Source of the DNA: a virus
Strand: one strand, 5' to 3'
IMG/VR virus record: IMGVR_UViG_3300010885_022505
Coordinates: 1-24,843 of that record
Length of the DNA: 24,843 bases
Below the pieces are notes generated by a model, which made no database searches, was not told the origin of the DNA, and saw only the letters and a program-made list of their open reading frames with translations. The translations under genes and the position numbers were made by a program. Shown here piece after piece: positions 3,578-22,943 of this stretch. Positions within the stretch are counted from its first letter, which is position 1, and every line of letters starts with the position of its first letter.

Positions 3578-4030
3578 TTATTGTAGGAGTCTTCTAGGGA
3601 TCCATCCTAGCTTTACGCACTGTAATAAGGCATGTCGTATCGCGTCAAGTGCGTGTCCTTCACCGCCCTTATGCCAATATTCCAGCTTCTTAAGTTTAGG
3701 ATTATCAAACATTGCCTTTGCGTCAGCAGGTGATTGAAAGTAGATGTCATCTGCACTTCTTCCTGCGTCCATAAGACATTGTTTTAGAATACCAATTTGC
3801 TCGAGGCTATATGGAGCCTGCGTCTTTTTAGCAGTCTGAGCGTTAATGATAAAGCGCTCGCAGACGATAACTACGTCAGGATACTCGACAAGAGTTTCTC
3901 GAATAGGCTTAGCGTATTCCTCCTGTTGATATTCTCCAGCCCAGACTAAGACAGGTTCCTGTCCTCTTTCAAACGAGAACAAAGTCATGCCTGTTGCCTT
4001 GCCTGGGTCTACCGATAAGATCATCTTCAC
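3578..4030 (-). CDS. RuvC-like Holliday junction resolvase
   Basis: This 150-residue protein has the RNase H-like fold signature of phage RuvC-type resolvases: SVDPGKATG with D8 on strand 1, VCERF with E58, and GEGHALDAIRH with H126/D129 near the end. These acidic residues would bind the two metal ions that cut branched DNA. Length is typical of phage RuvC homologues. The start is GTG at 4030, sharing one base with the TAG of the DNA polymerase gene (TAGTG). An internal ATG at 4024 is a possible alternative. Its place between polymerase and helicase fits resolution of replication or recombination intermediates before packaging. Confidence 0.87.
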   Translation of the reverse strand: MKMILSVDPGKATGMTLFSFERGQEPVLVWAGEYQQEEYAKPIRETLVEYPDVVIVCERFIINAQTAKKTQAPYSLEQIGILKQCLMDAGRSADDIYFQSPADAKAMFDNPKLKKLEYWHKGGEGHALDAIRHALLQCVKLGWIPRRLLQ

Positions 4031-5853
4031 TAGTATTTCTCTCCCCAGTTTTCCATAGGACCGTCAACACCGGCTGTAAGCGGAACTGCCCAACCTTCAG
4101 TGGTAGTCATGCATTCCTTAACTATGCGCTTGATTTCTTCAACGTTATTACGCGGCGCGTTGAGAACAATTTCATCGTGCACAGGGACAATTAGCAATTC
4201 GGTAAGATCTGCTTGATCTAGCTTTACAAGGTTCTGCTTAAATATCTCAGCAGCTCCTCCTTGAGCTAAGTAGTTAAGTAATGTGTAAACTCGATCTTCA
4301 TCACAAGGAAGTCTACGACCTGTCCATGTATGAACATACCCTTGGCCTTCTGCCTTGAGACGACGCATTCCTACATCTTCAATTTTTTGCTGAAATCCGG
4401 TCATGCCTGGGAAGCGTGTGTCAAACTGGCTGACTACAGTCTTCATTATGTTCTCTGGTACACCTGCGGTAAGTGCCTGCTTTGCAACACCTGCTCCGTA
4501 GAGACGACCATAGATCATTCCTTTGATGAGACCTCGTCGCTTGTCTGAACGCTGAAAGTTTGGATCACTGTATACTTCTTTTCCAATTTCAGTAAACGGG
4601 TCTGATCCAGTGAGGTCTGCCTGATGAAACATGCCGATAAGGTTTGGGTCTTCTGTGAGAGAGGCAACCATTCTAAACTCAACCTGGTCAAGGTCTGACG
4701 TAACAATTACATGATCTTCGTCCTTTGGGATAAACGCACGACGAACAACGTCATCACCCTTAGGTAAAGTCTGCAGCGCCGGGTTTTGAATTGACATACG
4801 TGAGGTGCGAGCGCCAAGTGTTTTAACAGATGGGTGCACAAAGCCGTTGACGTTATCGTTAAGAAAGTTGGCAAAGTAGGTATTAGCAAGCTTATCTGCC
4901 TTACGCTGCTTTAGCACGATTTCAGCCAAAGCCTTTACCTCATCATTGCCCTCAATGGTAAGTAGCTTGAGTTGATCCTTTGAAGCTGATTTTTGTCCCG
5001 AAGGTGTAAACTCGTTTATCTCTGCGCCAAGTGATTCTAGCAAGCGCACTAGTTGAATGTTGCTGCCAATAGAAACTCCGTTGTATTTTTCCTTAGCCCA
5101 TGTCTTAACTGATCCCGCGTATTCTGTCAACTCATCAAACTTCTTCCTTGAGTAGTCAAGGTCGATACGTGCGCCGTTAATTTCCATGCGAGTAACAATG
5201 CGACGTGTTGCCATCTCTAGCTCGTATGCTCTGTTGTATGGACCGTCAGGGCCACACTTTTCATAAAACTTTTCCCACAGGCGCATAGTTAAGATGCAGT
5301 CTAACGCACCGTATGCCCAATAAGGCTGAAAATTAGTAGGAACAGTTCCCCATGTCCAACCGTTAGTTGCTAACTCTGTGTCTAAGGTATCCTGCAAGGC
5401 AACCGCACGGCCGTCAATATACAAAGCTGCAAGACGCTTTAACGCACCAACACCAAGCGGATCAATAATGTGCGCCATAATCATTGTGTCGTGCGCGCGA
5501 TGCCAAGGCAGCTTCCAGCGCGATTGAATATCAAACCATCGAGCTTCAAACGCGATGTTGTGGCAAACAATTTGTCCATCAAACTTATCCATAGCTTGAT
5601 AGAACGCACCTGCCCACTCTTCCCATGACATTGCCCACGCTTGTTGACCATCGCCAACCTGCACTAGACGCAGGCGTCCGTGCCAAGGCGACAGTGCGTC
5701 CTTACGTTCACGCCCTGGATACTCTCCAGTTTCAGTGTCAATCGCAATTGCGTTGTGAGGACGACGCTCGCCAAGCCAGGTTAAGAACTCACCTGCTTTT
5801 TCAACGCTATCAACAAGGTGAAGTTTTACATCACCTAATCCTTCAATTGTCAT
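4030..5853 (-). CDS. DNA polymerase I (family A) with 3'-5' exonuclease
   Basis: A 607-residue phage replicative polymerase without a 5' nuclease domain. Exonuclease motifs are intact: AIDTETG (D39, E41), CHNIAFEARWF (98-107) and YGALDC (D185). Polymerase motif A is TSDLDQVEFR (D387), motif B is RRGLIKGMIYGRLYG (K444, Y448) and motif C is VPVHDEIV (HDE 559-561). The residue equivalent to E. coli Pol I F762 is tyrosine (Y448), as in T7 polymerase. Length and layout match the Pol A of many actinobacteriophages. The ATG at 5853 lies inside the last codons of the dCMP deaminase gene (11-base overlap), with GAGG six bases upstream. Confidence 0.96.
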   Translation of the reverse strand: MTIEGLGDVKLHLVDSVEKAGEFLTWLGERRPHNAIAIDTETGEYPGRERKDALSPWHGRLRLVQVGDGQQAWAMSWEEWAGAFYQAMDKFDGQIVCHNIAFEARWFDIQSRWKLPWHRAHDTMIMAHIIDPLGVGALKRLAALYIDGRAVALQDTLDTELATNGWTWGTVPTNFQPYWAYGALDCILTMRLWEKFYEKCGPDGPYNRAYELEMATRRIVTRMEINGARIDLDYSRKKFDELTEYAGSVKTWAKEKYNGVSIGSNIQLVRLLESLGAEINEFTPSGQKSASKDQLKLLTIEGNDEVKALAEIVLKQRKADKLANTYFANFLNDNVNGFVHPSVKTLGARTSRMSIQNPALQTLPKGDDVVRRAFIPKDEDHVIVTSDLDQVEFRMVASLTEDPNLIGMFHQADLTGSDPFTEIGKEVYSDPNFQRSDKRRGLIKGMIYGRLYGAGVAKQALTAGVPENIMKTVVSQFDTRFPGMTGFQQKIEDVGMRRLKAEGQGYVHTWTGRRLPCDEDRVYTLLNYLAQGGAAEIFKQNLVKLDQADLTELLIVPVHDEIVLNAPRNNVEEIKRIVKECMTTTEGWAVPLTAGVDGPMENWGEKY

Positions 5854-6322
5854 CTACGTCCTCTGTTATTACTACCTCAATGTTACATTTCTTAAAATAG
5901 TCTACTGTTGCATCCGGCAAACGATGAGCCGCCCGCGTTCCAATTCTCATGACAACGCGCGTAATACCAGAGTTAGAAATTAACTTTGCGCACTGATAGC
6001 ATGCTGCGTCTGTTATGTAGATGGTACCACCTTCTACGCGAGAACGATCAACGTATAGCAACGCATTTGACTCGGCGTGAATCGACGGGCATGAATCATA
6101 CGTGTTATCAAGTGCAGTTACTCCCTGCGCGCGCGGGCACCAGTCGATACAGTCTCCTTCAACTGGGAACAAGGCGGCAGGACCGTTGTAACCCGTCGAG
6201 CTTATGCGTTGATCCTTAGACACAACAACAGCTCCGATGTGAGCGCGACTACAGCGAGATCTCTGCGAGATTGTATCTGCAACTTGCATCCAGACATCGT
6301 CCCAGGAAGGACGACTATTCAT
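5843..6322 (-). CDS. Deoxycytidylate (dCMP) deaminase
   Basis: A zinc-dependent cytidine deaminase fold of the ComEB/dCMP deaminase type, converting dCMP to dUMP. The active-site HAE is in SIHAESNAL (about residue 82). The second zinc motif, usually PCxxC, reads ACYQC here (C108, C111). The extra pair in DCIDWCPR fits the structural zinc of dCMP deaminases. I chose ATG at 6322, which overlaps the stop of the small upstream gene (ATGAATAG) and has GTGGGA ahead. An in-frame GTG at 6331 would add three residues but lacks a ribosome site. In T4-like nucleotide pathways this enzyme coexists with dCMP hydroxymethylase, the combination found here. Confidence 0.92.
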   Translation of the reverse strand: MNSRPSWDDVWMQVADTISQRSRCSRAHIGAVVVSKDQRISSTGYNGPAALFPVEGDCIDWCPRAQGVTALDNTYDSCPSIHAESNALLYVDRSRVEGGTIYITDAACYQCAKLISNSGITRVVMRIGTRAAHRLPDATVDYFKKCNIEVVITEDVDDN

Positions 6323-6482
6323 CTGTCCCACTAAAAAGTGATGTTGTAAGAATTTTTGACACTAAATTTAGCGCGTCCTTCTTGCTAAAGCCCGCGGCTC
6401 TAAGCTCAACATACATCTCATGGAGTTGCACAGTTGCCTCACGCAGGGGACTTTCATTGAACCCCTCTAATTCATTACTCAC
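6315..6482 (-). CDS. Small helical protein of unknown function
   Basis: A 55-residue protein not matched to a family. I place the start at GTG 6482 because AAAGGAG lies seven bases upstream; a longer reading from 6554 would sit almost wholly inside the glycosyltransferase gene without such a site. The start codon lies in the last codons of the glycosyltransferase gene (GTGAGTAA), and its stop overlaps the dCMP deaminase start, so it bridges the two genes by coupling. The body (LREATVQLHEMYVELRAAG, then FSKKDALNLVSKILT) predicts two amphipathic helices and no membrane segment. Proteins of this helical type are common in phage replication operons, with no known job that I can assign. Confidence 0.7.
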   Translation of the reverse strand: MSNELEGFNESPLREATVQLHEMYVELRAAGFSKKDALNLVSKILTTSLFSGTDE

Positions 6483-7518
6483 TACGTTCTCCTTTCTGGT
6501 TTGCCCATAGTTGATCACATCTTCTAATGTACTTATTCGTGACGCCAACTGCAAACTCTATTGCCTCAGATGATACTTTGTACATCACATTATGCTGCCC
6601 TGGGGCAAGTATTTTTCCCCAGTAGGGAGCTAGTTTCTTAGCGAGAGGAGAAAAGCTGTCGGAAAAAGAGTGGTCGCTAACAAGAAGAGGATTATTATCT
6701 TCAGGGTGCATCTGAAGTCTATCCCACATCTGCGCAATATCTTCATCTGGCGTTATAGTCTTTGCAAAAACCTTGTTTGCAAAGTTATTGTTGACACGTT
6801 CGTGCACGTCCTTGCGCGCCTTAAATCTCTTTAAGCTTGTATAAGGTAGATGACATATTAGCCAATCTTCCTTACTAGACGCAGCAACTGTTGTATCCCA
6901 TAGTTCCCAGAACTTGCCGTCGCCATACTTAAGTTGATGCTGCCCGGCGTCAACAAAGTCGCCGGAGTTGTTTTTTACTAATATCTTTGACGGAACCCTA
7001 AACTCATGTAGAAGCTTCTCGTTTCGTTTAACCTGCTCGTGAAACTCGTCGCGGTCTACCACGTGGTTAATAGACGTGACGTAGTGATTGACAAGTTGAT
7101 AATCATCTAGTCTAGTATCGATAAACCCAGACGGCACTATGTAGTTTTCCAGCTGCATTGCTATGGCATTCCACCTAGCGTCTAGACTTGACAGATGATC
7201 CCTTATGCTTTTTCTAGTAGGGCTAACCAAAAATTCATCAGCGTCAAAGATAAAATTCCAATCAGGATTTTCCTTGTTACTAATGTCAAGAAGAATGTTA
7301 GTTAATGCTTCCTGGTCAAACAGCGTGTCCTCGTAGCGAAATACCTCTATTTGATCTGGCCATACCTTTTGCAACTCAACAAGACCGTTTTTAGTGTCGT
7401 CTGTGCTCGAGTGGTCAATGACAAATACCTTGTCAACATGGTAAAAAAGTGCATGCGAAATAGATATACCTAGTAAAGGCCACTCATTTCTCGCAATGAC
7501 AACTCCGTGAATTTTCAT
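6475..7518 (-). CDS. Glycosyltransferase, GT2 / GT-A fold
   Basis: A 347-residue protein whose first 100 residues are a GT-A sugar-nucleotide domain: IHGVVIARNEWPLLG, then VFVIDHSSTDDT (33-42), and the metal-binding DxD in FIFDADEFLV (residues 92-94). This is closest to the family-2-type 'Glyco_tranf_2_4' enzymes. The C-terminal 200 residues are not assigned. The ATG at 7518 overlaps the TGA of the hydroxymethylase-like gene (ATGA). Family members most often glycosylate polysaccharide or protein. Here, coupling to a dCMP-hydroxymethylase-like gene raises the possibility that the acceptor is 5-hydroxymethylcytosine in DNA, as with T4 glucosyltransferases, although those are a different family. 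The acceptor is an inference. Confidence 0.83.
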   Translation of the reverse strand: MKIHGVVIARNEWPLLGISISHALFYHVDKVFVIDHSSTDDTKNGLVELQKVWPDQIEVFRYEDTLFDQEALTNILLDISNKENPDWNFIFDADEFLVSPTRKSIRDHLSSLDARWNAIAMQLENYIVPSGFIDTRLDDYQLVNHYVTSINHVVDRDEFHEQVKRNEKLLHEFRVPSKILVKNNSGDFVDAGQHQLKYGDGKFWELWDTTVAASSKEDWLICHLPYTSLKRFKARKDVHERVNNNFANKVFAKTITPDEDIAQMWDRLQMHPEDNNPLLVSDHSFSDSFSPLAKKLAPYWGKILAPGQHNVMYKVSSEAIEFAVGVTNKYIRRCDQLWANQKGERSE

Positions 7519-8366
7519 CGGCTCTTGATAGCCTTAATCATCGCGTTGGCATACCATGCCTCAAAAGGATGTAGTGCACTAAGAAGCATAGGGTCTTCTC
7601 TGTGCGTTGCAGCTGTTAATGCAGACATCGCGCGATCTCGTACCTGTTGCCAGTTTGCGCCCGTGATGGCAGGTATATTTTCATAACGCTCAGTTGTGTG
7701 CTTTAGATTTTCTGCGGTCTCGTAGTGTTGCTCGTAGATATGAAGAGATCCAACGTGATGCGCATACGTGCCAGGTGCAATATCTAAGACTGACGCCATG
7801 GCAATTTGCACACGTGTAAACTGGAAGAAGTCATACGCGGCGCCTAGCCATACGTCGTTTGAGCGCATGTAAACGCTCATGTTAAGTTTGTTATCACGGA
7901 TTCTAAATTGGTGCAGGATTGTGCATGGGTAATCACGCTTCTCCGGGAGTAGATCTAGCTCAGGGTTCCAGATTGTAACCACTGCCTGTCGTGAATCAGG
8001 ATCCTTCTTAAGACGCTCGATAACTGGTTCATACTGGTTCTCTGTGCGTGCGCCGTATGCTCCATGAAATATGCCGTTGTCCTCGGCGTAGTTCTTAAAC
8101 ATCGGACCTACCTCGATAACAAGCTTAGGAGTTGCGGTGCCTGCTAGAAGCTGGCAGGCTTCAACCGCACCAATTCCCGCGACAGTTCCACGACCTACAC
8201 CTAGCGGAAGCGTGTTGCGCACGTCATCAATACGAATTATTGCGTCCTCAATCTCGCGGGTCTTCATTCCGCGGGGAGCTGCCTCCTTGCCGTATTTAAG
8301 AACGTGCTGAACGAGATCAACGTATCCGTTAACTCCGTCAGGTATGTTGATTATCGCAGTATCCAT
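7515..8366 (-). CDS. Thymidylate-synthase-family enzyme, likely dCMP hydroxymethylase
   Basis: A 283-residue ThyA-fold protein. Family landmarks are DPDSR (122-126), catalytic C148 in DYPCTILHQF, and MRSNDVWLGAAYDFFQF (167-183). In thymidylate synthases the last block has Asn (LGLPFNI in E. coli), which reads the uracil ring. Here it is D179, the residue used by T4 gp42 dCMP hydroxymethylase at the same site. The RSND string and VGSLHIY (205-211) are also closer to T4 gp42 (RSND, VGSLHVY, from memory) than to ThyA (RSCD, GGDTHLY). The expected product is therefore 5-hydroxymethyl-dCMP rather than dTMP. ATG at 8366 has AGGG seven bases ahead and overlaps the kinase gene by 16 bases. Confidence 0.85.
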   Translation of the reverse strand: MDTAIINIPDGVNGYVDLVQHVLKYGKEAAPRGMKTREIEDAIIRIDDVRNTLPLGVGRGTVAGIGAVEACQLLAGTATPKLVIEVGPMFKNYAEDNGIFHGAYGARTENQYEPVIERLKKDPDSRQAVVTIWNPELDLLPEKRDYPCTILHQFRIRDNKLNMSVYMRSNDVWLGAAYDFFQFTRVQIAMASVLDIAPGTYAHHVGSLHIYEQHYETAENLKHTTERYENIPAITGANWQQVRDRAMSALTAATHREDPMLLSALHPFEAWYANAMIKAIKSR

Positions 8367-9367
8367 TGATCATCCCTATCTCTCTTGTTAGATAAACGTG
8401 TAATAGCCTGGCCGTATTCTTCTTTTCTTGAGTTAAAAAATCGTCTTACGTATTGCGGGTGAGAAGTTACAGAGTAAAGATAGCTAGGTATGTTTGCATA
8501 CATAAGTCCTTTTTCCGCAAGACGCCCTAATGCAACTATAGGTGGACGACGTAGTGTAGCCCAGAGATCATCAAAGCGCTCTGGAGACATGTCGTTGATG
8601 TTAACTATTCCCATCGTCTTCCACTCCTCAGACTCCAAGGCCGTAAGTAAAAACTCGCCGGAGTTTCCGTCAACCGGCATAAATGGAAGCCTAGTCTCCT
8701 CGCCATATCTTTTACTGATGTTTCTGGTGTCACCTACAAGAAGCACCCTTGGAAACCTTTGCCCGATGTACTCTGGAAACCTTACAAGATCCTTCACGTC
8801 ATCCTGAAGCGTCTCTGCACGGCTGATAACCTGTGACGCAAGTCTTGGTATCTCGTCAAATGAGTCAGGAGGGGGAGTTAGTTTCCCGGCAAGTCCCGCG
8901 GAGTTTGCGGCTGCTACCGCGTATAGATCTAGGATCTGTTCAAGTTCATGTGCCTGTATGTAATCGTCACCGCGAGCATTAAGACGACGAGTAATAACGT
9001 CAAGAGGTTGATACAGCCAAAATTGAGATACACCGCGAGATTTAAGAAAGAGCTCTGTCCAACGCCACCCTGCAACACCAAGGAGACCATATCCATCACC
9101 AGAACCAGTCTCAGGGCGTTTAACCGCGGCGTATGTTACCTCGCCCCAATGCCACCGGTCTGCAACCGCAAGGCGCCTTGACCAGTCAACTTTTTCGATA
9201 GACGTAACGTAATCCTGTAGAACCCAACGACGCGTCATCTCTTCAGGCTTAGACTTATGGTAGAACTCAATTTCCTGTTTAGGAAACTTCTCGGCAAGTT
9301 GCCTTTGTATCTCAGACACAAGGGTAGATTTACCTGAGGCGTCCGTGCCTTCAACTACTATAAACAT
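8351..9367 (-). CDS. Thymidylate/dNMP kinase-like P-loop domain fused to UDG-like domain
   Basis: A 338-residue two-domain protein. Residues 1-185 are a thymidylate-kinase-like NMP kinase: Walker A GTDASGKST (7-15), ADRWHW (69-74) in the usual DR-x region, and RRLNARGDD (127-135) as a lid-like arginine segment. Residues 205-325 look like the uracil-DNA glycosylase superfamily (family 4/5 layout): VLLVGDTRN at motif I, PF...GNSGEFLLTAL (228-243), PPIVALGRLA (275-284) and SHPQYVRRF (302-310) at motif II. Motif I (GDTRN) departs from the usual GEAPG, so activity is uncertain and base binding is possible. This is the first gene after the 9399 promoter; AGGA lies eight bases before the ATG. A role phosphorylating hydroxymethyl-dCMP is inferred from context. 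Confidence 0.78.
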   Translation of the reverse strand: MFIVVEGTDASGKSTLVSEIQRQLAEKFPKQEIEFYHKSKPEEMTRRWVLQDYVTSIEKVDWSRRLAVADRWHWGEVTYAAVKRPETGSGDGYGLLGVAGWRWTELFLKSRGVSQFWLYQPLDVITRRLNARGDDYIQAHELEQILDLYAVAAANSAGLAGKLTPPPDSFDEIPRLASQVISRAETLQDDVKDLVRFPEYIGQRFPRVLLVGDTRNISKRYGEETRLPFMPVDGNSGEFLLTALESEEWKTMGIVNINDMSPERFDDLWATLRRPPIVALGRLAEKGLMYANIPSYLYSVTSHPQYVRRFFNSRKEEYGQAITRLSNKRDRDDQWILR

Positions 9368-9414: not shown

Positions 9415-9885
9415 CTAAGGGATAAGCTCTATCCTATACACCGACTCGATTCCACGGTCAACATCAGAGGCGTCCTCTAGGAGTCTCTGGGCCACGTTGG
9501 TGAGGTATCGTGCGCCGCCTTGGTCGTATTTATACAACGCATCTAGGACAGGAGTTGGCTCCTCGGATACCTGTGCCCAGTGGCGATGTTTCTCAGGGAA
9601 GATAATTGCAACGCTGCGGGTAGGGTTACATTCCTCGCAGGGTAGCGAGTCATCCACTAACGTAGATATAGGCATCTCTACAAGACTATATCTTTTTACT
9701 AGAGGACACGCCGCGCCATGGAAGATTAAGGACACGCCGATACGAGAAAGAATGTAAGAACCGTTGTCTGTCTTATAAAGCTTAAACTCGATCCAGCGTG
9801 TTGATCCACGGCGCCAGGAAGATGACTCACTTAGAAGACGGCCGCTAAACTGTAAAGTTCTAGCGCTGTCTTTAACCTCAAACAC
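9415..9885 (-). CDS. Hypothetical protein with conserved-looking cysteines
   Basis: A 156-residue protein I cannot assign. The N-terminal half alternates hydrophobic and charged residues, suggesting strands (LQFSGRLLSESSSW, RWIEFKLYKTDNGSYILSR). C60, C83 and C86 with H56 or H100 could form a zinc site. The C-terminus (YDQGGARYLTNVAQRLLED) is helical. The start is GTG at 9885, sharing one base with the TAG of the small gene upstream (TAGTG), so it is probably coupled to it. It lies between the small helical genes and the promoter of the nucleotide block, so it closes the preceding transcription unit. Confidence 0.72.
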   Translation of the reverse strand: MFEVKDSARTLQFSGRLLSESSSWRRGSTRWIEFKLYKTDNGSYILSRIGVSLIFHGAACPLVKRYSLVEMPISTLVDDSLPCEECNPTRSVAIIFPEKHRHWAQVSEEPTPVLDALYKYDQGGARYLTNVAQRLLEDASDVDRGIESVYRIELIP

Positions 9886-10543: not shown

Positions 10544-12418
10544 TTATCCTACCGCACTTACCCACGCTGAGTACCCAGCTGAATTTCCAGCCCTAACAAA
10601 CATTCTAACCCAAGTATACGTATTTGATGTTGATGTAACTCTTCCTTCAAATATACTAGTCCCGTAGACTGTTGCGGCAGATGCTACTGTATAGGCGTTT
10701 GTCGCTGTTGTAAGCGGAGTCCCCGCCGACAGAGCGGCAGCTGAAGCATAGTACTTAAAGTTGCTGTTTACAGCAAACCAGGGTCCAGAGCTAGAAGTGG
10801 ATGCCTCAACATACACCTGGTAGTAAGCTGCAGCGCTATGGCTTGCATCAACTGATGGCGCACTCCATGACGAACTGTTAAATACAAGGTTAGGAGCTGT
10901 TCCGCTTGACGGTGTAGACAGTCCAGTAGGTGCATTTGGTATAGTGGTGACAGCAGCAGTGGTAGTAAAGGTAGCAGTATCTGGGCTTGCGTATGCAAAA
11001 GGGCCAGTCTGATCTGTTTTTGTGTACGCTAAAATTTGATAGGTGTACGCTGTGCCAGCCGTAAGCCCAGTTAAAGCCTGGCTTGATACGTTGCTTGCCA
11101 AGTCAAATGGTGAACTAGTAATGTTTGTTCCTGCCTGTCTTACGTACAACTTGTAACTTCCAGCGCCTGTTGCGCCCGACCAGCTTATCGTTGCCGTAGT
11201 TTGAGTGATAGAACCAGCGCTTTGAGTAGGAGTTGCCGGCGAGGTGTATATGGTTGCGCTCCCAGGCATTCCAACTGTGTTAGAATTTGCAGCTCTAATA
11301 TAGAGAGTATTAGTGCTTCCAGTTCCTAATCCGGTAAATGTATACGATGTTACGTTTCCTATGGAGGTGTAGGTTGATCCGTCGGTGCTAGATTGGTATG
11401 AAGTTGCCCCAGTTATGGCAGACCACGTAACTTCCGCTGATGTTGAGGTGTACGTAGCGCCTTGATTTAAGGAAGGAGCTTGTAGTTTAGTGTATATAGT
11501 ATTCGTGTCTGGAGAAGCATATGTAAATGACCCGGTCTGACCTGCCCCGGAATAGGCTAATATTTGGTAATAATACGGAGTATTACGTGAAAGACCTGAA
11601 GAGATGGTTAAACTTGTAGTTGCCGTGGTGTATGAGTATGGAGAAGACGCAACATTTGTCAACGGAGATAGCGATGACCAAACATATAACTTCCAGCTGC
11701 CGGTTGTTCCTGTTCCGGCTGCCCAGCTTATAGTAATTGAGGTGTCCGTTGACGTAGCGCTTTGCGTAGGTGTTCCCGGCGCCGCGGTTGGAGTTCCGGA
11801 CACGGTTCCCGCCGTGCCGTATAGCGCAGTTGATGAGTTATATGCCTTCACATAGAAAGTATACGCAGTTCCTGTTGTTAGTCCGGTAAATGTATAAGAT
11901 GTCACATTTCCTACGGAGGTGTAGGTTGATCCATTTGTGCTAACGTAGTATGCAGTAGCTCCGCTTATCGCAGACCAGCTGACAGTTACAGACGTAGCGG
12001 CTGTCGCAGAAACGCTTAACGAGGGAGTCGCGGGCGTAGTGTAAAAGGTAGCGGTAGCAGTTGTTGTAAATCCACTAGGAAATGAAGTCCAGCCCTGAAC
12101 TGTTGCCGTGTAACTAGTATTTGCACTTAAGGCTGCTGTAGTATAAGTAGTAGTAGCTCCAAGGTCTTGTTGAGAAAAAGCGGCAGGAGAAATGCTTAAT
12201 CTAAAATAGGCGTATCCAACCGACGATATGGTAAAGGTAGCGTTAGTAGCAGTGACATTTGATACCGCTAGGGAAAGAGCGGATGAAGTAAAGAATGTTT
12301 TCCAAGCTCCTGCAACTTTTACATATCCGTCAGATACAGTCTTCCAGGCTCCACCTACCTTTACATAGTAGCTTGTAGCAGTCTTCCAGGAACTTGAGAC
12401 CTTAGCGTAGCTAGCCAT
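10544..12418 (-). CDS. Fibronectin type III tail/appendage protein
   Basis: A 624-residue, Ser/Thr/Ala-rich protein. Residues 4-43 hold three short repeats of the form YVKVGGAWKT, seen at the start of many phage tail-tip proteins. About five fibronectin-III-like domains follow at 46-128, 129-211, 213-311, 312-394 and 395-487, and a divergent beta domain fills 494-624. Typical strand patterns are SVTVSWSAISGATAYYV and TSYTFTGLTTGTAYTFYV. Domains 2-3 and 4-5 are a tandem duplication visible in the DNA. Such proteins usually decorate the tail tip or fibre and bind cell-surface sugars. The ATG at 12418 overlaps the TAA of the fibre gene (TAATG). It may be the receptor-binding protein; that is an inference. 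Confidence 0.82.
   Translation of the reverse strand: MASYAKVSSSWKTATSYYVKVGGAWKTVSDGYVKVAGAWKTFFTSSALSLAVSNVTATNATFTISSVGYAYFRLSISPAAFSQQDLGATTTYTTAALSANTSYTATVQGWTSFPSGFTTTATATFYTTPATPSLSVSATAATSVTVSWSAISGATAYYVSTNGSTYTSVGNVTSYTFTGLTTGTAYTFYVKAYNSSTALYGTAGTVSGTPTAAPGTPTQSATSTDTSITISWAAGTGTTGSWKLYVWSSLSPLTNVASSPYSYTTATTSLTISSGLSRNTPYYYQILAYSGAGQTGSFTYASPDTNTIYTKLQAPSLNQGATYTSTSAEVTWSAITGATSYQSSTDGSTYTSIGNVTSYTFTGLGTGSTNTLYIRAANSNTVGMPGSATIYTSPATPTQSAGSITQTTATISWSGATGAGSYKLYVRQAGTNITSSPFDLASNVSSQALTGLTAGTAYTYQILAYTKTDQTGPFAYASPDTATFTTTAAVTTIPNAPTGLSTPSSGTAPNLVFNSSSWSAPSVDASHSAAAYYQVYVEASTSSSGPWFAVNSNFKYYASAAALSAGTPLTTATNAYTVASAATVYGTSIFEGRVTSTSNTYTWVRMFVRAGNSAGYSAWVSAVG
10958..12034 (-). repeat. 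Tandem duplication of a two-domain FN3 unit
   Basis: The unit coded at 11486-12034 (domains 2+3) recurs at 10958-11485 (domains 4+5). Long stretches match at the DNA level, for example around 11331-11410 and 11882-11960 (shared core GGAGGTGTAGGTTGATCC). The protein phrases YTS-GNVTSYTFTGL and QTG-F-YASPDT recur. Retained DNA similarity suggests a recent duplication or recombination between copies. Confidence 0.8.
12290..12409 (-). repeat. Three YVKVGGAWKT repeats
   Basis: Residues 4-43 of the FN3 protein contain YAKVSSSWKT, YVKVGGAWKT and YVKVAGAWKT, spaced 14-15 residues apart. The shared K-V-x-x-x-W-K-T pattern suggests a small beta-repeat attachment segment at the N-terminus. Confidence 0.75.
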
Positions 12419-14391
12419 TATGCAGTGTACACCAATACAACGTCGCCGTCAGTTCCAGTGGTATCTGATCCCGCAGTAAAAGAAGTAACACACTTAATAT
12501 TTCTTAAGGCATACCGGCTGTAAAGTGAACCAGTACTTAATTCTGCATAAGTATTTGTAATTAAAATGTTGTTGTTGTTACTGCCGCCTACAACTCCTAT
12601 TATTGCGTATCCTGAAGTTCCAGTTCCTGCAGAGTTTAAGACTATAGCGCCACGGCCAGTTCCTGATCCAAAACTTTGCCCGTATATACTTAGATTACTG
12701 CTAGTGCCTGACAGGTTAGCAGCAATGCTTAAACCTCCAGGTGCGCTGCCAGCTCCTGAGTCCATCGCGATCCCAACTCCTGAAGATTCCCAACTAAGAA
12801 CTGTTGGAGCAAGAGTCACACGCGGAGCGCCCGAACTTACAGAGGAAAACGATGTGACTGAGTTGGTGCTGATAACGCCAGATGTCAAAGTAGGAGACGT
12901 CATAGTGATAGCAGCAGCGATAGTTCCGGCGTTAATTTGAGTTGTGTTAATAGTTCCTGTGTAGATAACATTAACGTCAAGTGATCCGGCATTTATCTTA
13001 TTTGCGTTAATAGTCCCCGAGTATATAACGCCTGCCGCAAGTGTACCTGCGTTGATCTGGCTAGCATTTACAGTTCCGGCATAGACGATGTTTGACGCAA
13101 TCGTGCCGGTGCTAATCTGGTTGGCGTTAAGACTTCCAGCATACACAACACCAGCCGCTAGAGTTCCGGTAGAAATTTGCGTTGCCGATATACTTGTTAT
13201 CGCACTGCTACCAAGAAGAATTGATTTCCAACCGGCGCTATTGGTAATTGTGCCTGACGCCGCGGCTGATGTGACGTTTGTAGCTGTCTTAGCATAGGTA
13301 AGTGTCGTAGTTGTAGGCACTGCAATAACTGTGTATGTACCGTTAAATGTTGCGTCTACGGATGTAACTACGATGGACTCGCCGGGAGTGAAGCTGTGCG
13401 CGGCCGAGGTTGTCAATGTCGCAACGTTAGATGTAAGAGCCTTGTTAGATACCGTAGAAGATGTTGAAAGAGAGTACCTGTAGATGGCGTTATCACCGTC
13501 GGTGTCAAACCAGGTGTCTCCTGCAACGTATGTTCCGCCTGTCGGCACGGTTGTTTGACGATATATCTTGTTTTTTCCGTCCGCCGTGCTTTGCGCTGCT
13601 AGAGCCGCAGCTTCACCTGCTGCTGCTGCCGCTGCCGCTGCTGCTGCCGCTGCCGCTGCTGCTGCGATTGCAGTATCTTGAGAAGATACCCATCCAGCAG
13701 CGCTGATAGCCGAACCTGAAGATGCCACTGACACAACGTTAGATGCTGTTTTAGCATAGGTAAACGTAGAAGTTGTAGGAGTAGAGGCTACTGTGTATGT
13801 GCCGTTGAATGTGGCATCTACCGCCGATACAGTAATGCTTTGACCAATTGCTAGTTCATGAGCCCCGCTAGTTGTTAAGGTTGCAACGTTGGACGTAAGA
13901 GCCTTGTTAGATACCGTAGAAGTTGTACCAAGTACGTATCTATAAAGTTTATTTCCATCATCGCTGTCATACCATAGATCATTTTCCTTATACGTTCCAC
14001 CAGTTGGTGCAGATGTTTGAACATAGATGGTGTTTTTTCCATCAGCGGTTTGCTGAGCGTTTGCATCTGTGACAGGGACAAACTCATCAAGATCTGTGCT
14101 GTAGAGTTGGTACTCGCCGGTGTCTGGGTTAAACCAGCCGGTGCCTGGCTTTAAGTATTCTGTTGGCTCGGTGTCGCTAACAACGGTAGTTCCGAAGGAT
14201 GCCTCGTTAGGTGTTACCGCGTCTTCTTGAATTACCTTTGTTGTTACCGCACGGTACCCAAGCTTCTCAGTTGTTACAACGTTAGCCTTGAGACGTTTTG
14301 CAGCAGGCCGCTTCTCAACACGGCGAACGCGTTTCTCAACGTCAACGATAACCTTGCCGATACTCTTACGGCGTCTACGTCTACTGGCCAA
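12418..14391 (-). CDS. Repeat-rich minor tail / tail fibre protein
   Basis: About 657 residues. A basic N-terminus (MASRRRRRKSIGK) is followed by a helix, then two ~120-residue units (TADGKN to AAGW/SAGW), each ending in an E1_FCCH-like beta module. A run of 16 alanines separates the units. Five 20-residue repeats of the type AGTLAAGVIYSGTINANKIN follow, which should form a trimeric beta-helical stalk, then a Gly/Ser-rich C-terminal head. This layout is that of a trimeric fibre. The start is likely TTG at 14391, nine bases after GGAGG; TTG at 14400 directly abuts the same GGAGG and is less likely. The frame overlaps the minor tail gene upstream. Numbering in the repeat entries counts from 14400. 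Confidence 0.83.
   Translation of the reverse strand: MASRRRRRKSIGKVIVDVEKRVRRVEKRPAAKRLKANVVTTEKLGYRAVTTKVIQEDAVTPNEASFGTTVVSDTEPTEYLKPGTGWFNPDTGEYQLYSTDLDEFVPVTDANAQQTADGKNTIYVQTSAPTGGTYKENDLWYDSDDGNKLYRYVLGTTSTVSNKALTSNVATLTTSGAHELAIGQSITVSAVDATFNGTYTVASTPTTSTFTYAKTASNVVSVASSGSAISAAGWVSSQDTAIAAAAAAAAAAAAAAAAGEAAALAAQSTADGKNKIYRQTTVPTGGTYVAGDTWFDTDGDNAIYRYSLSTSSTVSNKALTSNVATLTTSAAHSFTPGESIVVTSVDATFNGTYTVIAVPTTTTLTYAKTATNVTSAAASGTITNSAGWKSILLGSSAITSISATQISTGTLAAGVVYAGSLNANQISTGTIASNIVYAGTVNASQINAGTLAAGVIYSGTINANKINAGSLDVNVIYTGTINTTQINAGTIAAAITMTSPTLTSGVISTNSVTSFSSVSSGAPRVTLAPTVLSWESSGVGIAMDSGAGSAPGGLSIAANLSGTSSNLSIYGQSFGSGTGRGAIVLNSAGTGTSGYAIIGVVGGSNNNNILITNTYAELSTGSLYSRYALRNIKCVTSFTAGSDTTGTDGDVVLVYTA
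12910..13188 (-). repeat. Five 20-residue stalk repeats in the fibre
   Basis: Residues 405-497 consist of five copies of a 20-residue unit with consensus INAGTLAAGVIYAGTINANQ. The period is exact (60 bases each) and hydrophobic positions are kept, as in triple beta-helix fibre shafts. It is coding and has no spacers, so it is not a CRISPR array. Confidence 0.85.
13228..14049 (-). repeat. Duplicated 120-residue unit with E1_FCCH-like module and poly-Ala linker
   Basis: Unit 1 (13690-14049) and unit 2 (13228-13587) share TADGKN, PTGGTY, a DxWxD segment, then an E1_FCCH-like module (13708-13914 and 13243-13452). The modules share STVSNKALTSNVATLTTS exactly, and the DNA around 13430-13460 and 13885-13920 is nearly identical. 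Between them, 13618-13665 codes 16 alanines in mixed GCN codons. Confidence 0.82.
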
Positions 14392-16348
14392 TCTTGTCAA
14401 CCTCCGGCTCTGTAACTAGCAGCAGCTCAGTTTCCTCCGGGAAACTTGGTGTGTCTGGGACTGAAACCTTAAATCCTTCAATCTTGCGAACGATTACTGT
14501 ATCGCGAACCTCGAGATCACTTGCAAGACGCATTCTTACAAATTCGTCTTCAACGATAATTGAGCACCAGTCTCCCGGCACAAACTCGCCGATCTTCGGA
14601 GATAGAGATCCGTTAACCTTTACCTTGATGTCTGAGACAGGAGGACGTGACTCTGCGAGGTATCGTTGAGCGTGACCGTATAGCGCGAGCTCGTCTGATT
14701 CCTCGCTGCGAGTCTCCTCTCCATCGAGTAGCGGCCAGCCTGCGGCTAACAGATCGGTAGCGGACGCGACAGCGTAAGGCTGGCTGATGTCATCGCCAAG
14801 ATCTGGGATGTTTCCAACAACAAAGAAGCGTGTTGCCGCGTCCTCGGCAGATTCTTCCATGGTTACGTCGATGATGCTTCCGGGATACTCAAACACAAGT
14901 TGATCAGCGCCGTAGCGACTTGGCGGAGAGACCTGTCCCTCCGCGGGAGGATTTGGATAGTCAATAGGTATAAGAACAAATGTGCGTGTAAACGTAGGGA
15001 TGTCGCCGATGTAGACAAGTTCGCAGTCAATACGATATTCAAAACCATCTACCGTGTCGGAGTACTCGTCTAGTTCCTCGCCGACGGACTTTAGTTCATA
15101 TCCGCGATATGGATTATTTGGCACGTTCTTACCGCTATACGCATCTGTAGAATATGAGATATCAATGTCAGAGTTGCCAGGAAACGGCCCGTATGTTCCA
15201 ATGTCCACAGTTGATTGAACAACCGCAGTTCCACCGGTTACCGCTGTCGCAACCATGTCGCTGTCCGCGACATAAACCCTAAACGTCGTGGCGGTTGGCA
15301 CGTCTACAATCTGATACTCGCCGTCAAATACTATGGTAAGAGAAGTAGGGTCATCTACGCCTGTAAGCACAACGGTGTCGTATTGTGCAAAGCCGTGGGC
15401 ATTGCTTGTGGTAATCGTTGCGGTAAAGTCGGCAACTGACTTAAGTGTTACTGTTTTAGTTATGTTCTTTACCGAGGACGTTAACGATGATGCAATGGTA
15501 AACGTAGTAGCGCTTGGTGTTGCGACTACATCCCACAAACCGTCAAGACCAGCCGACACGTTATAGATTTCTAATGACTGCGTAGGTATCAGGTTGTGAG
15601 CAGACACGGTGGTTACGGTAGTTACGCTTGACGGCGCGGTAATAGATGTGATTCGCAGACTAGTAGTAAGAGCAGGCTCTATGTCCGTGTTAGGAAATGA
15701 GATGTCGCTAAAGTCCACAAGAATCTCGTCAAGCAGCTGGCGCACGTAGTCGTAGGTGTCAACACGCGCGTAGACTGTTACACCTACGTATGTCCCGTTG
15801 GGAACGGACGTGCCGGTAATTGTAAACGTAGCATTTGTAGGAGAGGATGCTATCGTGTAGTATGCGTTATAGATAAAGTCAGAAACCTCTGGAAATATAA
15901 GACGCACCGACGATCCTACGGGAAAGTCATACTCCAAGGATTCTAGGGTTCCAGTTAGTGTTCCGCCAGACGCGACGATGGTTGCGCCAAAATCGTGAGT
16001 ATATGTCTTCCAGATGTTACGGTGGAAGAAGTAGCTGGTAAACTCTGACGCGCTAACACTTAGGTCTCGATCAACAACGTTGTAGTTGCGGTTCCAGATA
16101 ATTCCACCCCAGACGCACTCGCTATCGCGAACAACGTAGAGTCCAGTTTTTCCCGGCATCGTGCTTTCATATAGGTTCATTGACGCTGTCTCCGGGATAA
16201 CCGGTATGCTGCCGCCAAAGCTTCCCGCGGCCTTGATGGATCTTTCAAAGGAAACTCCCTTAAAAGGAATCTCCGCAAGTACTTCGTTAGTTAAAAGATC
16301 GGTGGTAAAATATCGGTATATGGCCGCGTCTGATTGGTACAGTACCAT
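14381..16348 (-). CDS. Minor tail protein with inserted beta modules
   Basis: A 655-residue protein. The N-terminus (FKGVSFERSIKAAGSFGGSIP, then GKTGLYVVRDSECVWGGIIW at 67-85) and the C-terminus (PGDWCSIIVEDEFVRMRL, RKIEGFKVSVP) match the actinophage minor tail protein found right after the Dit-like gene, comparable to Gp37-type (ReqiPepy6) siphovirus proteins. It would sit at the tail tip. The part between about 121 and 378 is mostly extra beta modules: a clear one at 297-378, a weaker one at 232-287 and a marginal one at 121-192. ATG at 16348 has GAGGT upstream. The end overlaps the start of the fibre gene. Confidence 0.83.
   Translation of the reverse strand: MVLYQSDAAIYRYFTTDLLTNEVLAEIPFKGVSFERSIKAAGSFGGSIPVIPETASMNLYESTMPGKTGLYVVRDSECVWGGIIWNRNYNVVDRDLSVSASEFTSYFFHRNIWKTYTHDFGATIVASGGTLTGTLESLEYDFPVGSSVRLIFPEVSDFIYNAYYTIASSPTNATFTITGTSVPNGTYVGVTVYARVDTYDYVRQLLDEILVDFSDISFPNTDIEPALTTSLRITSITAPSSVTTVTTVSAHNLIPTQSLEIYNVSAGLDGLWDVVATPSATTFTIASSLTSSVKNITKTVTLKSVADFTATITTSNAHGFAQYDTVVLTGVDDPTSLTIVFDGEYQIVDVPTATTFRVYVADSDMVATAVTGGTAVVQSTVDIGTYGPFPGNSDIDISYSTDAYSGKNVPNNPYRGYELKSVGEELDEYSDTVDGFEYRIDCELVYIGDIPTFTRTFVLIPIDYPNPPAEGQVSPPSRYGADQLVFEYPGSIIDVTMEESAEDAATRFFVVGNIPDLGDDISQPYAVASATDLLAAGWPLLDGEETRSEESDELALYGHAQRYLAESRPPVSDIKVKVNGSLSPKIGEFVPGDWCSIIVEDEFVRMRLASDLEVRDTVIVRKIEGFKVSVPDTPSFPEETELLLVTEPEVDKIGQ
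15215..15460 (-). repeat. E1_FCCH-like beta module in minor tail protein
   Basis: Residues 297-378 include TATITTSNAHGFAQYDTVVL and VFDGEYQIVDVPTATTF, the pattern shared with the other copies (TTxxAHGF, then G-x-Y-x-I, then V-P-T-x-T-T-F). A weaker copy precedes it at 15488-15655 (TTVSAHNLIPTQSLEIYNVS, then VVATPSATTFTIASS). A marginal one at 15773-15988 keeps only the YTIASSPTNATFTI ending. Confidence 0.65.
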
Positions 16349-16393
16349 TTGTTATACCTCACTAAGTAGATTCGTCGTTGAGTACATTGTATA

Positions 16394-18031
16394 CTATCCA
16401 AGCCATGCAGAGCGGTAATATATGGTCAAGGACGCAGAGCTTGTCAGATCTCCGTCATCGTAGAAACTAAACACGTTTGCGCCTGGAGCTAGAAGTGTCC
16501 ACTCCGCAAGAACGTCAATAAGACTGCGCTTGCCGACTGCATCACCGTTAAGCGCAACCTCGTGATCTTTTGTGTCAACCTCAAGAATATCCGCGGTAGA
16601 TGTAATTGTCCCAGAGCTAGCAACAGATACTACGTTGGTCGCAGTTTTAGCGTAGGTAAGCGTTGTGGTTGTTGGGACAGTTAATATCGTAAAGGTACCG
16701 TTGAATGTTGCGTGAACACCGGATACAACTACCACATCACCTGCAAGTAGTCCGTGCGCCGCCGTTGTGGTTAGCGTCGCGATGTTACTCGTTAAGGCCC
16801 TGTTAGAAACTGTAGGTGTTAGGACTCCGCGCAACGCGCCGATGATGGTGATAGCCTCGTTGGTTGTCTCGTTAAGAATAGTTGCAGGGCCAACGATGGG
16901 ACCGGTAACCTCAAACACGACAGGTGAGTATGCGTTTCCTGTGTTTGTAACCGTGCCTGTTCCAGATCCGACAGTTCCTGAATCTTCTCCTGCAATCGTC
17001 ACCGCGCGATAGCCTAGCTCGTTTCCTTCATACCACTCGTACTTAAGAGGATCTGGAGCACGAAGACCGATTGAAAATTCAGTGCGTCCACGCGCGTTTA
17101 CAGTTTGAATGTCTGGCCGTCCAGACAGGCGAACAAACGAAGCCTTGGTAGGATTTTCATTTGTCCTTAGCCATCCGCCTACATACACAAGATCTGTCTC
17201 CTGAATAAGCTTGTCTCTCGACACTGGAATCAACGACGGATCCGGGGTAAGAAAGACTCCGGTAAGGGTAATTTGACGAGCTTGGTAGCGTCCGCGCACG
17301 TCGTAGGAGCCATCGCCCCAACCGCGAGGAATATCGTTTACCTCCGGCTCGGGGTGAACCCACCAGCCCTCAATGTCTGTGCACACCCAGACGACACCGT
17401 TTTCGTCTATCGTGTTAAGAACAAGACTACCGATGGAAACATCGGCGTTAAGCTGCATTCCCGTGATCTTAGGAATAGGTAAAGGCGTAAGCCCTAGGTT
17501 GACGTACTTGTTTTCAGTTGCCTGCGTTACGTCGTCAAAATACTCACCGACGTAGGACGCGGCCTCAAACATAAATGCGTCCGCATAGAATTTCTTGCTA
17601 ACCGTGCCAGCCAACGGCTGAACAACCGAGATTGACGCTCCAAGGGCTAATGAAGGCGCTGTCATTACACCCATTAGTCTTATCCAGTCATCACCTGGGG
17701 TGTTCTCTAAACCGATTGTGGACGTTGTAGAGATAAGGCTACCGCCTGTTAGGGCGGTGTACCAGCCGACGTTGATTTGGAAGGTCCCGGTCTCTTGTCC
17801 TGCAGGTACCTTTACATATCCGGCAACCGCGTATGAGGTAGCGGCGGAGACTGAGATGCGAGATGCAATCACCGCACCTGAGTTTACAGCCGCGGCCTTT
17901 GTAATCTCAAGACACGAGGAACCAAAGAAGGCGTCGGTTGTAATACGTGTAATTGTAGAAGACCCCGTGGCAGACCAGCCTGTTGTGTTTGTCTTAAAGG
18001 AAGGGTTGACGACTAGGTTATTTCTCGCCAT
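16394..18031 (-). CDS. Distal tail (Dit-like) protein with N-terminal carbohydrate-binding-like domain
   Basis: A 545-residue protein. Residues 1-165 (NLVVNPSFKTNTTGWSATGS and FYADAFMFEAASYVGEYFDD) have the start and end signature of a CBM4/9-type jelly-roll. Residues 180-400 are the actinophage Dit/sipho-tail domain (VSIGSLVLNTIDENGVVW, GRYQARQITLTGVFLTPD, IGLRAPDPLKYEW). An E1_FCCH-like module (407-479) is inserted between GALRG and DILEVDTKDHEVALNG, two segments normally adjacent in Dit. Residues 480-545 complete the domain. The gene follows the tape measure directly (TAA, then ATG at 18031, with GGAGG from the TMP end), the standard Dit position. Dit forms the hub below the tail tube. Confidence 0.85.
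   Translation of the reverse strand: MARNNLVVNPSFKTNTTGWSATGSSTITRITTDAFFGSSCLEITKAAAVNSGAVIASRISVSAATSYAVAGYVKVPAGQETGTFQINVGWYTALTGGSLISTTSTIGLENTPGDDWIRLMGVMTAPSLALGASISVVQPLAGTVSKKFYADAFMFEAASYVGEYFDDVTQATENKYVNLGLTPLPIPKITGMQLNADVSIGSLVLNTIDENGVVWVCTDIEGWWVHPEPEVNDIPRGWGDGSYDVRGRYQARQITLTGVFLTPDPSLIPVSRDKLIQETDLVYVGGWLRTNENPTKASFVRLSGRPDIQTVNARGRTEFSIGLRAPDPLKYEWYEGNELGYRAVTIAGEDSGTVGSGTGTVTNTGNAYSPVVFEVTGPIVGPATILNETTNEAITIIGALRGVLTPTVSNRALTSNIATLTTTAAHGLLAGDVVVVSGVHATFNGTFTILTVPTTTTLTYAKTATNVVSVASSGTITSTADILEVDTKDHEVALNGDAVGKRSLIDVLAEWTLLAPGANVFSFYDDGDLTSSASLTIYYRSAWLG
16595..16813 (-). repeat. E1_FCCH-like module inserted in Dit domain
   Basis: Residues 407-479 of the Dit-like protein read TVSNRALTSNIATLTTTAAH, then GDVVVVSGVHATFNGTFTI and VPTTTTLTYAKTATNVVSVA. 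The segment is close to the two fibre copies at 13243 and 13708, including parts of the DNA, suggesting copying between genes. Confidence 0.8.
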
Positions 18032-18032
18032 G

Positions 18033-21000
18033 TTATGCTCCTCCGCGACGAAGTTGGAATGCGATTTGACGTGAAACTATAGACGCGAGCTCTGATTCGT
18101 TCATTCCTGGTGAAGGGTAGACGTTGATAGTCATCCCCGCGCCTTGTCCTCCAGAAAGCATCTGAATCATTGCCTTATCACGCTTTGATAGTCCGTCTGG
18201 GTCAAGAGGCTCTACACGCTCTGGCCGTCCTGCTTCTGCTATCTGAGCCATAGTTCCACCTGGCGAAGGCATAACAACTCCGCCTTTTGCCAAGCTAGGA
18301 AACCCTAGAGTAAAGCTTGGGAGAGTTTTTCCAAGGATGGTTGCCCCTCCAATTTTTAGCTGCTTGCTTGCAACATTTGCGTTCCACCAAGCTTTTGCAT
18401 TAGCCCATGCGTTCTTTAGTCCACTTGTTAAACCTTCCCAAATGTTGCCAAGGCCATTTCCAATTTTTCCAGGTATTGACTTAACAAAATCAACGATTTG
18501 ACCAAATCTTGTCTGTATCTCTGTCCACGCGGCGGATAGATTTTTTCCTAGCCATGACCATATAGCAGAACCAACTTCAGCTAGTTTTCCAGGTATTCCC
18601 TTAACAAAGGCTACTATATTGTCCCAATTTTTAACTATGGCAAGAACTGCCAAACCAAGCGGACCAGTTAATATTGCAAGCACTAAAGGCCAGTTTGTCT
18701 TTAGCCAGTCAATAACATTTCCAATAACATTTTTTATGCCTTCAAAAAGTTTATCTACGGCGTTTCTAAATGTCTCGCTTTTGTTGTACAACAGCGCAAA
18801 ACCGGCGATAAGAAGACCGATAGCAAGGAGAATAGCACCAACCGGGTTAGCGGCTAAGGCAAGACCAAAAACTCTTAAAGCAGCGCCTGCGCCTTTCAGT
18901 GCGGTAACAAACGCGCCGCCAAGCGCCATCGCGAGAGCGCCTAAACCTTTTGCTGCGCCTCTTACTGCCGTGACTCCCAGCGTGGAAAGTTTTGCCGTGA
19001 ACTTAGACGTAGTTAGCGTAGCTAGTGATTCCTTGCCTATGAGAAGTCCAACTCCACGTACCATGAACAATATGTTGCCTGCTACAACCTTAAACCCGAA
19101 GGCGGCAGCTCCGAACGCAAGACCAAGTGCGCTAATTGCTCCAAAAATCTTAGATAAGAAGTCAAATGCTGTTCTAACCGCCGGTATCGCTAAGAAGGTA
19201 TTTAACGAGCTTAATAGTTTATCAAGGGTGTTAAAGAACGCGGTGATACCGCCAGAAGAAGCCGTAAGCTCTGCAAAACGCACAAGCGACGTTATAAACT
19301 TTGCTAGCGAAGGTCCTCCCTTGTTAAGTTCTGTGAGAAGCTTTCCAAAGGAAGGTGCAGCTGTGCCCAAGGTGTCCCAAAACTTCTTAATATTAGGGTC
19401 CGCACCAGCCTTAAGAATTTCCTTAATAAACTTACCTATGCTGCTAAGAACTGCCTTAGAGTTTTCAGCCGTGCCCTTGAAGTAATCAGATAAAGCGGTT
19501 TGGCCCTCAACGCTGCCGGAGAACGCCTCGAACTTTCCTGTCACCTCCTTGAAGTAATCAAGAAGTATGTATCCGCCGCCGCCAGGAGTGAAGTTTGCCT
19601 TAACAATGTTAGTTATGCCGCTTATCGCATTACCAAAGATTGTGCCAATCTTAGCCGCGATGTCGCCAGCCTTATCAAACATCTTTTGAAGTTCACCGGT
19701 TGCCTGCTTAGTATCAAGGTACTTAGCCCAGCCGGCTGTCTTACCTTCTAAGAACTTATTAAACTTTGCTGCTAGAGGCTGAGCTGAGATAAGAACAGAA
19801 AGGAACGAGTCGTATAGGTTGCCCGCAGTTCTTGCGTAGCTTTGTATATTAACACCGGCATTTTTAATAACCTGTTTTAGATCACCGATATTCTCAATAT
19901 CAGTAATTGCCTTGGTGATACTTCCAAAGGCCTTGCCTATGCTGTTTCCAAGATCTACAAGAACTGGTTTTAGCTCTGGGAATAATTTAGTTCGAAGTCT
20001 TTCTAGTCCGGATTCAAGCTGACCAAATAGCTTACTGCCTAGCGCATCGCGCAGATCTTTAAGTGAAGGCATAAACGTGTTAACCATGTAGTTAACAAAT
20101 CCTTGCGCCTCCTTAGAGAGACCGGCCATTGAATCAGCAAATGCTGTATCTGCAGATCCACCTTTTTTAGCCTTCTCGAGAGCATCCTGCGCATCTTTCT
20201 GCTCACGTATAGCTTCAATTTGTCTTTTCTCAGCTTCAAGATAGGTTTCTGTTTGCTCGTACTTCTTAGTACCTGCAGCCTCGGCCGCGTCTCCTAGGCG
20301 TTTTTGCTCTGCGGTAAGATCTGAGTTACGGTCCTTAGCCTTGCGAAGATTAAGGTCAGCTTCTGCAAACGCAAGTTTTGCCTCGCGGCGTGCGCGAGAG
20401 TTAGGAGGCAGATCTGCCACACGTGCTAATGTTTCACGAGCTTTCTCGAGCTCGATGGCAGCTTTACTTTCACTGATAGCTGCGTCCTCAACGTCAAAGT
20501 CAAGTTGCTGGACTTCTTCTGCCGCAGCTGCAGTTGCCTTTGCAAAATCATATTGAGCTTCTACAACTCGCTCTGTTGTGAGAGCAAGACGTTTTAATGC
20601 TGCGTCCTCAGCGGTAGTGTCTTTTACTGATCCTTTACGCGCTTTACTTCCTGCGGAAATTGCCGCGCCTACTCCCTTAAGAGCGGCCATTAGACCTATT
20701 CCAGCTATGCCAATAGAAGTGAGTGCGGTGGCAAGCACGACAGCGGAGGGAGCAGCGGCAAGGAAGGCAGCGCCCAGGGAGACAACTCCGCCTACAAGAG
20801 ATCCTATGCTAGAAAGTAGCGTCGAGATTAAAGGGCCAAGCGTGTAACCTGTGCGAACAAGAGACTGGAATTGTTTTCTTGCCGCGAAGGCTTGCTTGTC
20901 AAAGTTGCTTAACCCGCGACTCATAGCGCTTCCGGCACCTCGCCCAAATCCGCGGGAGAATGTCTCTCCTACAGACTTGCCGTCTTTATTAAGATCAATT

Positions 21001-22933: not shown

Positions 22934-22943
22934 ATTAGTCTCC

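Follow-up and report, generated by a model that had tools for sequence, protein, structure and literature searches.

Within a 24,843-nt stretch of viral DNA (IMG/VR record IMGVR_UViG_3300010885_022505, hereafter the window) lies a gene that joins a P-loop kinase to a domain of the uracil-DNA-glycosylase (UDG) type (Table 1). The kinase fold, the UDG fold, the fusion of the two, its conservation, and its linkage to a dCMP-type thymidylate synthase (TS) homologue and a dCMP deaminase were all established by computation.

Table 1. Genes, domains, and motifs at the kinase-UDG locus (positions in the window)
Feature	Position	Strand	Remarks
Family A DNA polymerase	4030..5853	(-)	PF00476 E 5.3e-52
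dCMP deaminase	5843..6331	(-)	PF00383 E 1.1e-17; phrog_174 E 3.3e-46
GT2 glycosyltransferase	6475..7518	(-)	PF13704 E 1.5e-12
dCMP-type TS homologue (PCT..., YDFFQFT)	7515..8366	(-)	16-nt overlap with kinase-UDG gene
Kinase-UDG fused gene	8351..9367	(-)	338 aa, single open frame
P-loop dNMP kinase domain, residues 1-185	8813..9367	(-)	GTDASGKS; DRWHWGE; RRLNARGDD
UDG-fold domain, residues 196-338	8354..8782	(-)	Structure match and hhalign
Motif A position GDTRN (212-216)	8720..8734	(-)	D213 aligns with UdgX E52
PFMPVDGNSGEFL (228-240), PFVGxxGxLL counterpart	8648..8686	(-)	F229 and N235 invariant in 33/33
N256	8600..8602	(-)	Aligned with TN-motif Asn (UdgX N91); invariant in 33/33
Motif B HPQYVRRF (303-310)	8438..8461	(-)	H303 = UdgX H178, R309 = UdgX R184

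The preliminary description of this DNA had marked positions 8351-8775 as the UDG-like part, which corresponds to residues 198-338 and the stop codon of the open reading frame (ORF) at 8351-9367(-). Is the gene real, or did a sequencing frameshift merge two genes, as that description allowed? The frameshift can be rejected with near certainty. Nothing was found in its support, and independent relatives carry the same fused ORF: 126 of the 128 IMG/VR loci tested (two scans plus phage G; some loci come from shared contigs, and there are 59 distinct C-terminal tails), phage DSL-LC01, and Bacillus phage G (gp315). The 63 loci of the first scan encode 41 distinct full-length proteins, with no internal stops. 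The two exceptions among the 128 are L130, where the contig starts within the gene, and L131, which is phage G; its UDG part was not reached by the window-type profile at the threshold used. The AlphaFold model of the full-length protein has a pLDDT of 91.9 and a pTM of 0.92. When bacterial copies were sought in genome contigs, 81 pattern matches were obtained, none of which is a relative.

Elsewhere in the window, the ORF at 9415-9885(-), upstream of the kinase-UDG gene and 156 aa long, has no match in Pfam or PHROG, and several tail-region ORFs within 12418-24311(-) repeat the pattern SNKALTSN.ATLTT.AAH...ATFNGTYTV...TTTTFTYAK.

A kinase domain joined to a UDG fold

The N-terminal half of the protein (residues 1-185) is a P-loop kinase like YorR and the dTMP kinases, with a substrate specificity that is a prediction. 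It matches PHROG 761, thymidylate kinase, with an E value of 9.6e-12 and YorR (2axp) by sequence with an E value of 3e-5, and structure comparison gave a Z score of 18.4 for YorR and about 15 for TMPKs. Every Pfam match to this half, TMPK included, is below threshold. The P-loop fold carries the Walker A, DR, and LID arginine features of thymidylate/dNMP kinases, and G7, G12, K13, D70, R71, R128, and R132 are invariant among the 33 relatives in alignment A1.

The C-terminal domain is predicted to adopt a UDG fold; uracil excision itself is putative. A model of residues 186-338 alone, made with 22 sequences, has a pLDDT of 81.0; its loops around residues 216-235 and at the C terminus are weak. 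Foldseek of this model against the PDB gave 29 matches with E values of 0.001 or below, all listed as UDG or UdgX, among them UdgX 6iod (8e-5) and Thermotoga maritima UDG 1l9g (2.2e-4). VIA-align placed T. maritima UDG 1vk2 at Z 12.1 (rmsd 3.4, 137 aligned) and UdgX 6ajo at Z 11.7, with SMUG1 at about 8-9 and TDG at about 8. The UDG alpha/beta fold seen in the model places the domain in the UDG superfamily at the level of fold and supports the earlier reading of a UDG fold attached to a kinase.

By sequence, hhalign of the domain gave a probability of 94% (E 1.3e-7) when phage-G-type domains were part of the UDG profile, but only 48% (E 1.8e-4) when the profile consisted of bona fide UDG and UdgX, with phage G omitted. 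Pfam PF03167 has no match in the window protein's own C-terminal domain, 8 of the 33 family members show sub-threshold Pfam UDG matches (best E 0.0068), and a direct hmmsearch of the domain profile against PDB sequences gave no matches. Phage G gp315, annotated as a thymidylate kinase, has the same two-domain architecture over its full length (E 6e-13), and its gene neighborhood likewise includes a dCMP deaminase and a TS homologue with D177. It is only 22-23% identical to the window protein, its own motif A (AQNPG) is closer to the GINPG of Mug/TDG, and, unlike that of the window, its C-terminal domain passes Pfam UDG (48.2 bits, cut-off 24.3). Because it aligns over both domains and passes Pfam UDG, gp315 forms a sequence bridge to UDG.

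Which features of a UDG pocket are kept? The landmarks quoted in the preliminary description are all in place: VLLVGDTRN (208-216), PF..SGEFLL (228-241), IVALGRLA (277-284), and HPQYVRR (303-309). In alignment A1, G212, D213, R215, F229, N235, N256, G281, H303, P304, and R309 are invariant, and N216 and S236 are kept in 32 of 33. This landmark conservation exceeds chance; a hypergeometric p of 5e-6 is a descriptive value, as the positions were picked after alignment and the sequences are related. In UdgX, according to PMC10359453, H178 and N91 form hydrogen bonds with uracil, R184 touches the backbone of the DNA, and the task of E52 is to activate the nucleophile and, in the manner of family 4, water. 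The aligned equivalents in the window are H303, N256, R309, and D213, respectively; that of N256 is based on hhalign (GIVNI against WFTNL) and strand position.

Motif A had been described as GDTRN in place of the family 4 form. GD and RN are indeed kept, but the third residue varies (T/K/E/Q/N/R), and the conserved form is GDxRN, in which G, D, and R never vary, against GE(A/G)PG in family 4. R215 and N216 stand in place of P and G. The reported loss of GExPG thus holds, but an acid, now D instead of E, still occupies the aligned position, and a loss of catalysis need not follow. Motif B reads HPQ(Y/H)V(R/K)R against HPS(S/A)(L/V)(L/V)R in family 4, keeping H, P, and R and changing S to Q. The RPPxNR and ITxxRG segments are missing from the window-type domain, and the phage G type also is without ITxxRG. 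Family 4 UDGs have Fe-S cysteines; no invariant or near-invariant Cys was found in alignment A2, and no R-loop of the UdgX kind (KRRIH with H109) occurs in alignment A1. In sum, the domain shares with family 4 UDG and UdgX the fold (Z 11-12), the pocket Asn, His, and Arg, and the motif A acid, whereas it has GDxRN for GEAPG/GEQPG and a kinase as fusion partner. Since the P and G of motif A, the two segments, the cysteines, and the R-loop are lost, it is assigned to no numbered UDG family.

Neighboring genes and distribution of the fusion

The synthase homologue lies directly downstream of the kinase-UDG gene in lake-phage relatives as well as in the window. Its top PDB match is the CMP 5-hydroxymethylase MilA (E 2.6e-24), which outranks every thymidylate synthase, and it has D177 and an altered position 147 (T147), the pattern of dCMP hydroxymethylases, whereas phage G gp124 and SPO1 gp29 have N at position 177. 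According to PMC8670742, the substitution N177D redirects the enzyme toward dCMP, and positions 147 and 177 are the ones that best tell contigs with modified cytosine apart from unmodified ones. A nearest structure of MilA does not fix the chemistry: hydroxymethyl transfer is putative, and D177 TS-like enzymes could make 5mdCMP instead.

How constant is this pairing? The D-type TS motif was found in 123 of 133 locus files, always with D (the count includes the window as L064 and phage G twice), by a search that demanded R-S/A/C-N/G-D, is blind to canonical RSAD/RSSD, and tests the neighbor gene rather than the whole locus. Five of the remaining ten (L056, L057, L107, L108, and L111) have the D in a slightly altered motif, four are cut by the contig end, and the last (L132) has a D-type synthase about 10 kb off. 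The five form a sub-clade in which the synthase homologue reads PCTVLHQYRIRNNKLNLSVYMRSND, with Y replacing F. Conversely, among 568 synthase-like stretches, the best 80 include 76 with the kinase-UDG fusion on the locus and 4 that are cut by the contig end. A second, better-scoring TS lies elsewhere in phage G, where it has N177, and in the 504-kb phage G002.

A dCMP deaminase was found in all 10 records tested. The same 10 records contain no PF00692 dUTPase, no ThyX, no PF02543 carbamoyltransferase, and no PF01503 PRA-PH over the cut-off. In a 504-kb phage (L133:6693-7649), the deaminase ORF is split by a long intein-like insertion (LCLTGDNY... IVHN). The GT2 glycosyltransferase of the window sits between the synthase homologue and the deaminase and could decorate a hydroxymethylated base; phage G has two alpha-glucosyltransferases near gp315. 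DSL-LC01 (L148, L147) is annotated with a TauD/TfdA dioxygenase, an Fpg/Nei glycosylase, a MazG-like enzyme, and several glycosyltransferases, a gene set consistent with base modification. The pathway set of T4 comprises a dCMP hydroxymethylase, a dNMP kinase, and a dCMP deaminase. The same kinds of enzyme are predicted together in the window, where, unlike in T4, the kinase is of the YorR/TMPK type with a UDG domain and the synthase is nearest to MilA among solved structures.

Is the UDG domain maintained, or is it a decaying relic that became joined to the kinase by chance? Among 15 genes of equal length, 66 of 73 pairs were usable and gave a median dN/dS of 0.075 for the UDG part and 0.111 for the kinase part, ratios that are rough since dS, at 0.8-1.2, is near saturation. 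The domain is under purifying selection in the window's clade, and this, together with the invariant pocket residues, argues that it is not a relic. The preliminary description had also considered a salvaged catalytic domain, which, if taken to mean a leftover, has become less likely. The UDG part of the 504-kb phage contig L133 is reduced to a remnant, as a relic might be, but selection in the window's clade and the retention of the fused ORF in nearly every locus tested make decay very improbable.

In four Gordonia phages (GodonK, Forza, GMA2, and Sixama), the kinase occurs together with a D177 synthase, and no UDG domain was found (by profile test for GodonK and Forza only). A dCMP deaminase is present in three of them within the stretch shown, with none seen there in Forza. 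Scanning with the Gordonia-type TS gave just 2 loci. Because these phages do without the UDG domain and L133 has a remnant, the domain is optional and nonessential to the pathway. In the kinase tree, the UDG label needs two changes: a single clade of UDG-bearing kinases is not supported, and phage G stands beside the UDG-less YorR/E3 kinases (85/71, long branches). Two fusions, or a single fusion with losses, would both fit this tree.

Possible roles of the UDG fold

What might such a fusion do? Most likely, the cluster is a supply pathway for 5-hydroxymethyl-dCMP (5hmdCMP) in which the UDG fold would recognize or remove uracil-type nucleotides. The synthase homologue would convert dCMP to 5hmdCMP by hydroxymethylation, and the kinase domain would phosphorylate 5hmdCMP and probably other dNMPs too. 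In hmC phages, dCMP deaminases can also take 5hmdCMP as a substrate. The deaminase could raise dUMP or 5hmdUMP, the latter by deamination. The UDG-fold domain, with its uracil-type Asn pocket, may bind, and perhaps hydrolyze, dUMP or 5hmdUMP. Its targets would be uracil-type deoxynucleotides of the pool or of newly made DNA, which would be kept from following 5hmdC into the genome.

For base discrimination within a modified-cytosine supply pathway as the task of the UDG fold, the chances appear about even. The preliminary description had proposed the discrimination of modified pyrimidine nucleotides, which fits the dCMP-hydroxymethylase-type neighbor, the function itself being putative. In its favor are the fold matches, the homology with phage G gp315, the purifying selection, and the constant pairing with the synthase homologue. 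By its title, 6ajp is a solved complex of UdgX with dUMP, so a UDG fold can hold a mononucleotide; all 33 aligned relatives keep D213, N256, H303, and R309; the D177 TS adjoins; and the 10 records have a dCMP deaminase but no PF00692 dUTPase. Weighing on the other side are the lost GExPG, the window domain's want of a Pfam match, the 48% from hhalign without phage G, the kinase and D177-TS pair of the Gordonia phages with no UDG domain, and the remnant in L133. Moreover, UDGs normally act on DNA rather than mononucleotides, and dUTPase may be supplied by the host.

In a "phosphorylate or destroy" version, the kinase would activate 5hmdCMP while the UDG fold would cleave free dUMP and 5hmdUMP. 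This putative activity is unlikely; if real, it would be that of a UDG-fold N-glycosidase acting on the nucleotide pool and would amount to nucleotide-level proofreading for modified phage DNA. DNPH1, an hmdUMP N-hydrolase, resembles the domain in the proposed task of clearing hmdUMP from the pool, as a functional analogy only; its fold is considered unrelated to the UDG fold.

UDG folds also occur on replication proteins. The N-terminal UDG domain of the gp31 polymerase of SPO1, a base-modified (hmU) phage, matches PF03167 (E 2.9e-23) and family 4 UDG 1ui0 (E 4.3e-28), and the depositors of a UdgX PDB entry named it "Phage SPO1 DNA polymerase-related protein." The polymerase of phiLo (9qhs, a structure "with modified template") matches the C-terminal domain model at Z 9.7, and BFVD holds UDG-like folds on further phage polymerases, including that of SP-15, with phage G gp315 at rank 4. 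In the family A polymerases SPO1 gp31 and phiLo, as in the window, the UDG fold is attached to a phage replication protein, but its partner there is a polymerase, not a kinase. The window's own family A polymerase has no UDG match. On the Aeromonas veronii plasmid pVA7-1 (L138:5800-6480), a DnaE-like DNA polymerase bears at its C terminus a UDG-like domain (PF03167 E 1.4e-9), in which motif B reads PNPQM.

Could the UDG fold, then, anchor the kinase to the replication fork, or read DNA bases as a template reader, leaving nucleotides untouched? Its recurrence on SPO1 gp31, the Aeromonas plasmid DnaE, phiLo, and SP-15 would suit such a tether, since the domains on phage polymerases may work likewise, and R309 aligns with a DNA-backbone Arg. 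However, the partner is a nucleotide kinase, and DNA binding should be weaker with canonical RPPxNR and ITxxRG absent, which leaves the tether an improbable explanation. A catalytically dead domain that stabilizes or regulates the kinase, for example as an allosteric nucleotide sensor, has a similarly low probability: the change of motif A to GDxRN and the fixed domain arrangement implied by the full-length pTM speak for it, but the invariant pocket residues exceed the needs of a pure scaffold. When the domain's activity is considered by itself, (i) uracil-type binding with catalysis is possible though doubtful, (ii) uracil-type binding without catalysis is unlikely, (iii) a DNA tether is equally so, and (iv) a scaffold or other role is as possible, and as doubtful, as the first.

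The author of the preliminary description knew of no kinase-UDG fusion, and no description of one was found in open PMC papers either, among which the hyphenation of enzyme names may have hidden some. The words glycosylase, UDG, and kinase are absent from the main text of PMC8670742, and the accessible part of the DSL-LC01 paper (PMC10611076) leaves kinase, thymidylate, and glycosylase unmentioned. UDG domains on phage polymerases are already known; the kinase as partner is apparently new, at least to us.

Phages that replace a base must exclude the wrong pyrimidines from their own DNA. Many lake phages, and phage G as well, join a base-recognition fold to a kinase that commits nucleotides to DNA synthesis, beside a dCMP-type modification enzyme, and the fusion suggests a built-in check on the building blocks entering phage DNA. 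Taken with the SPO1, SP-15, and phiLo polymerases, it suggests that phages with modified DNA reuse UDG folds as base readers or editors.
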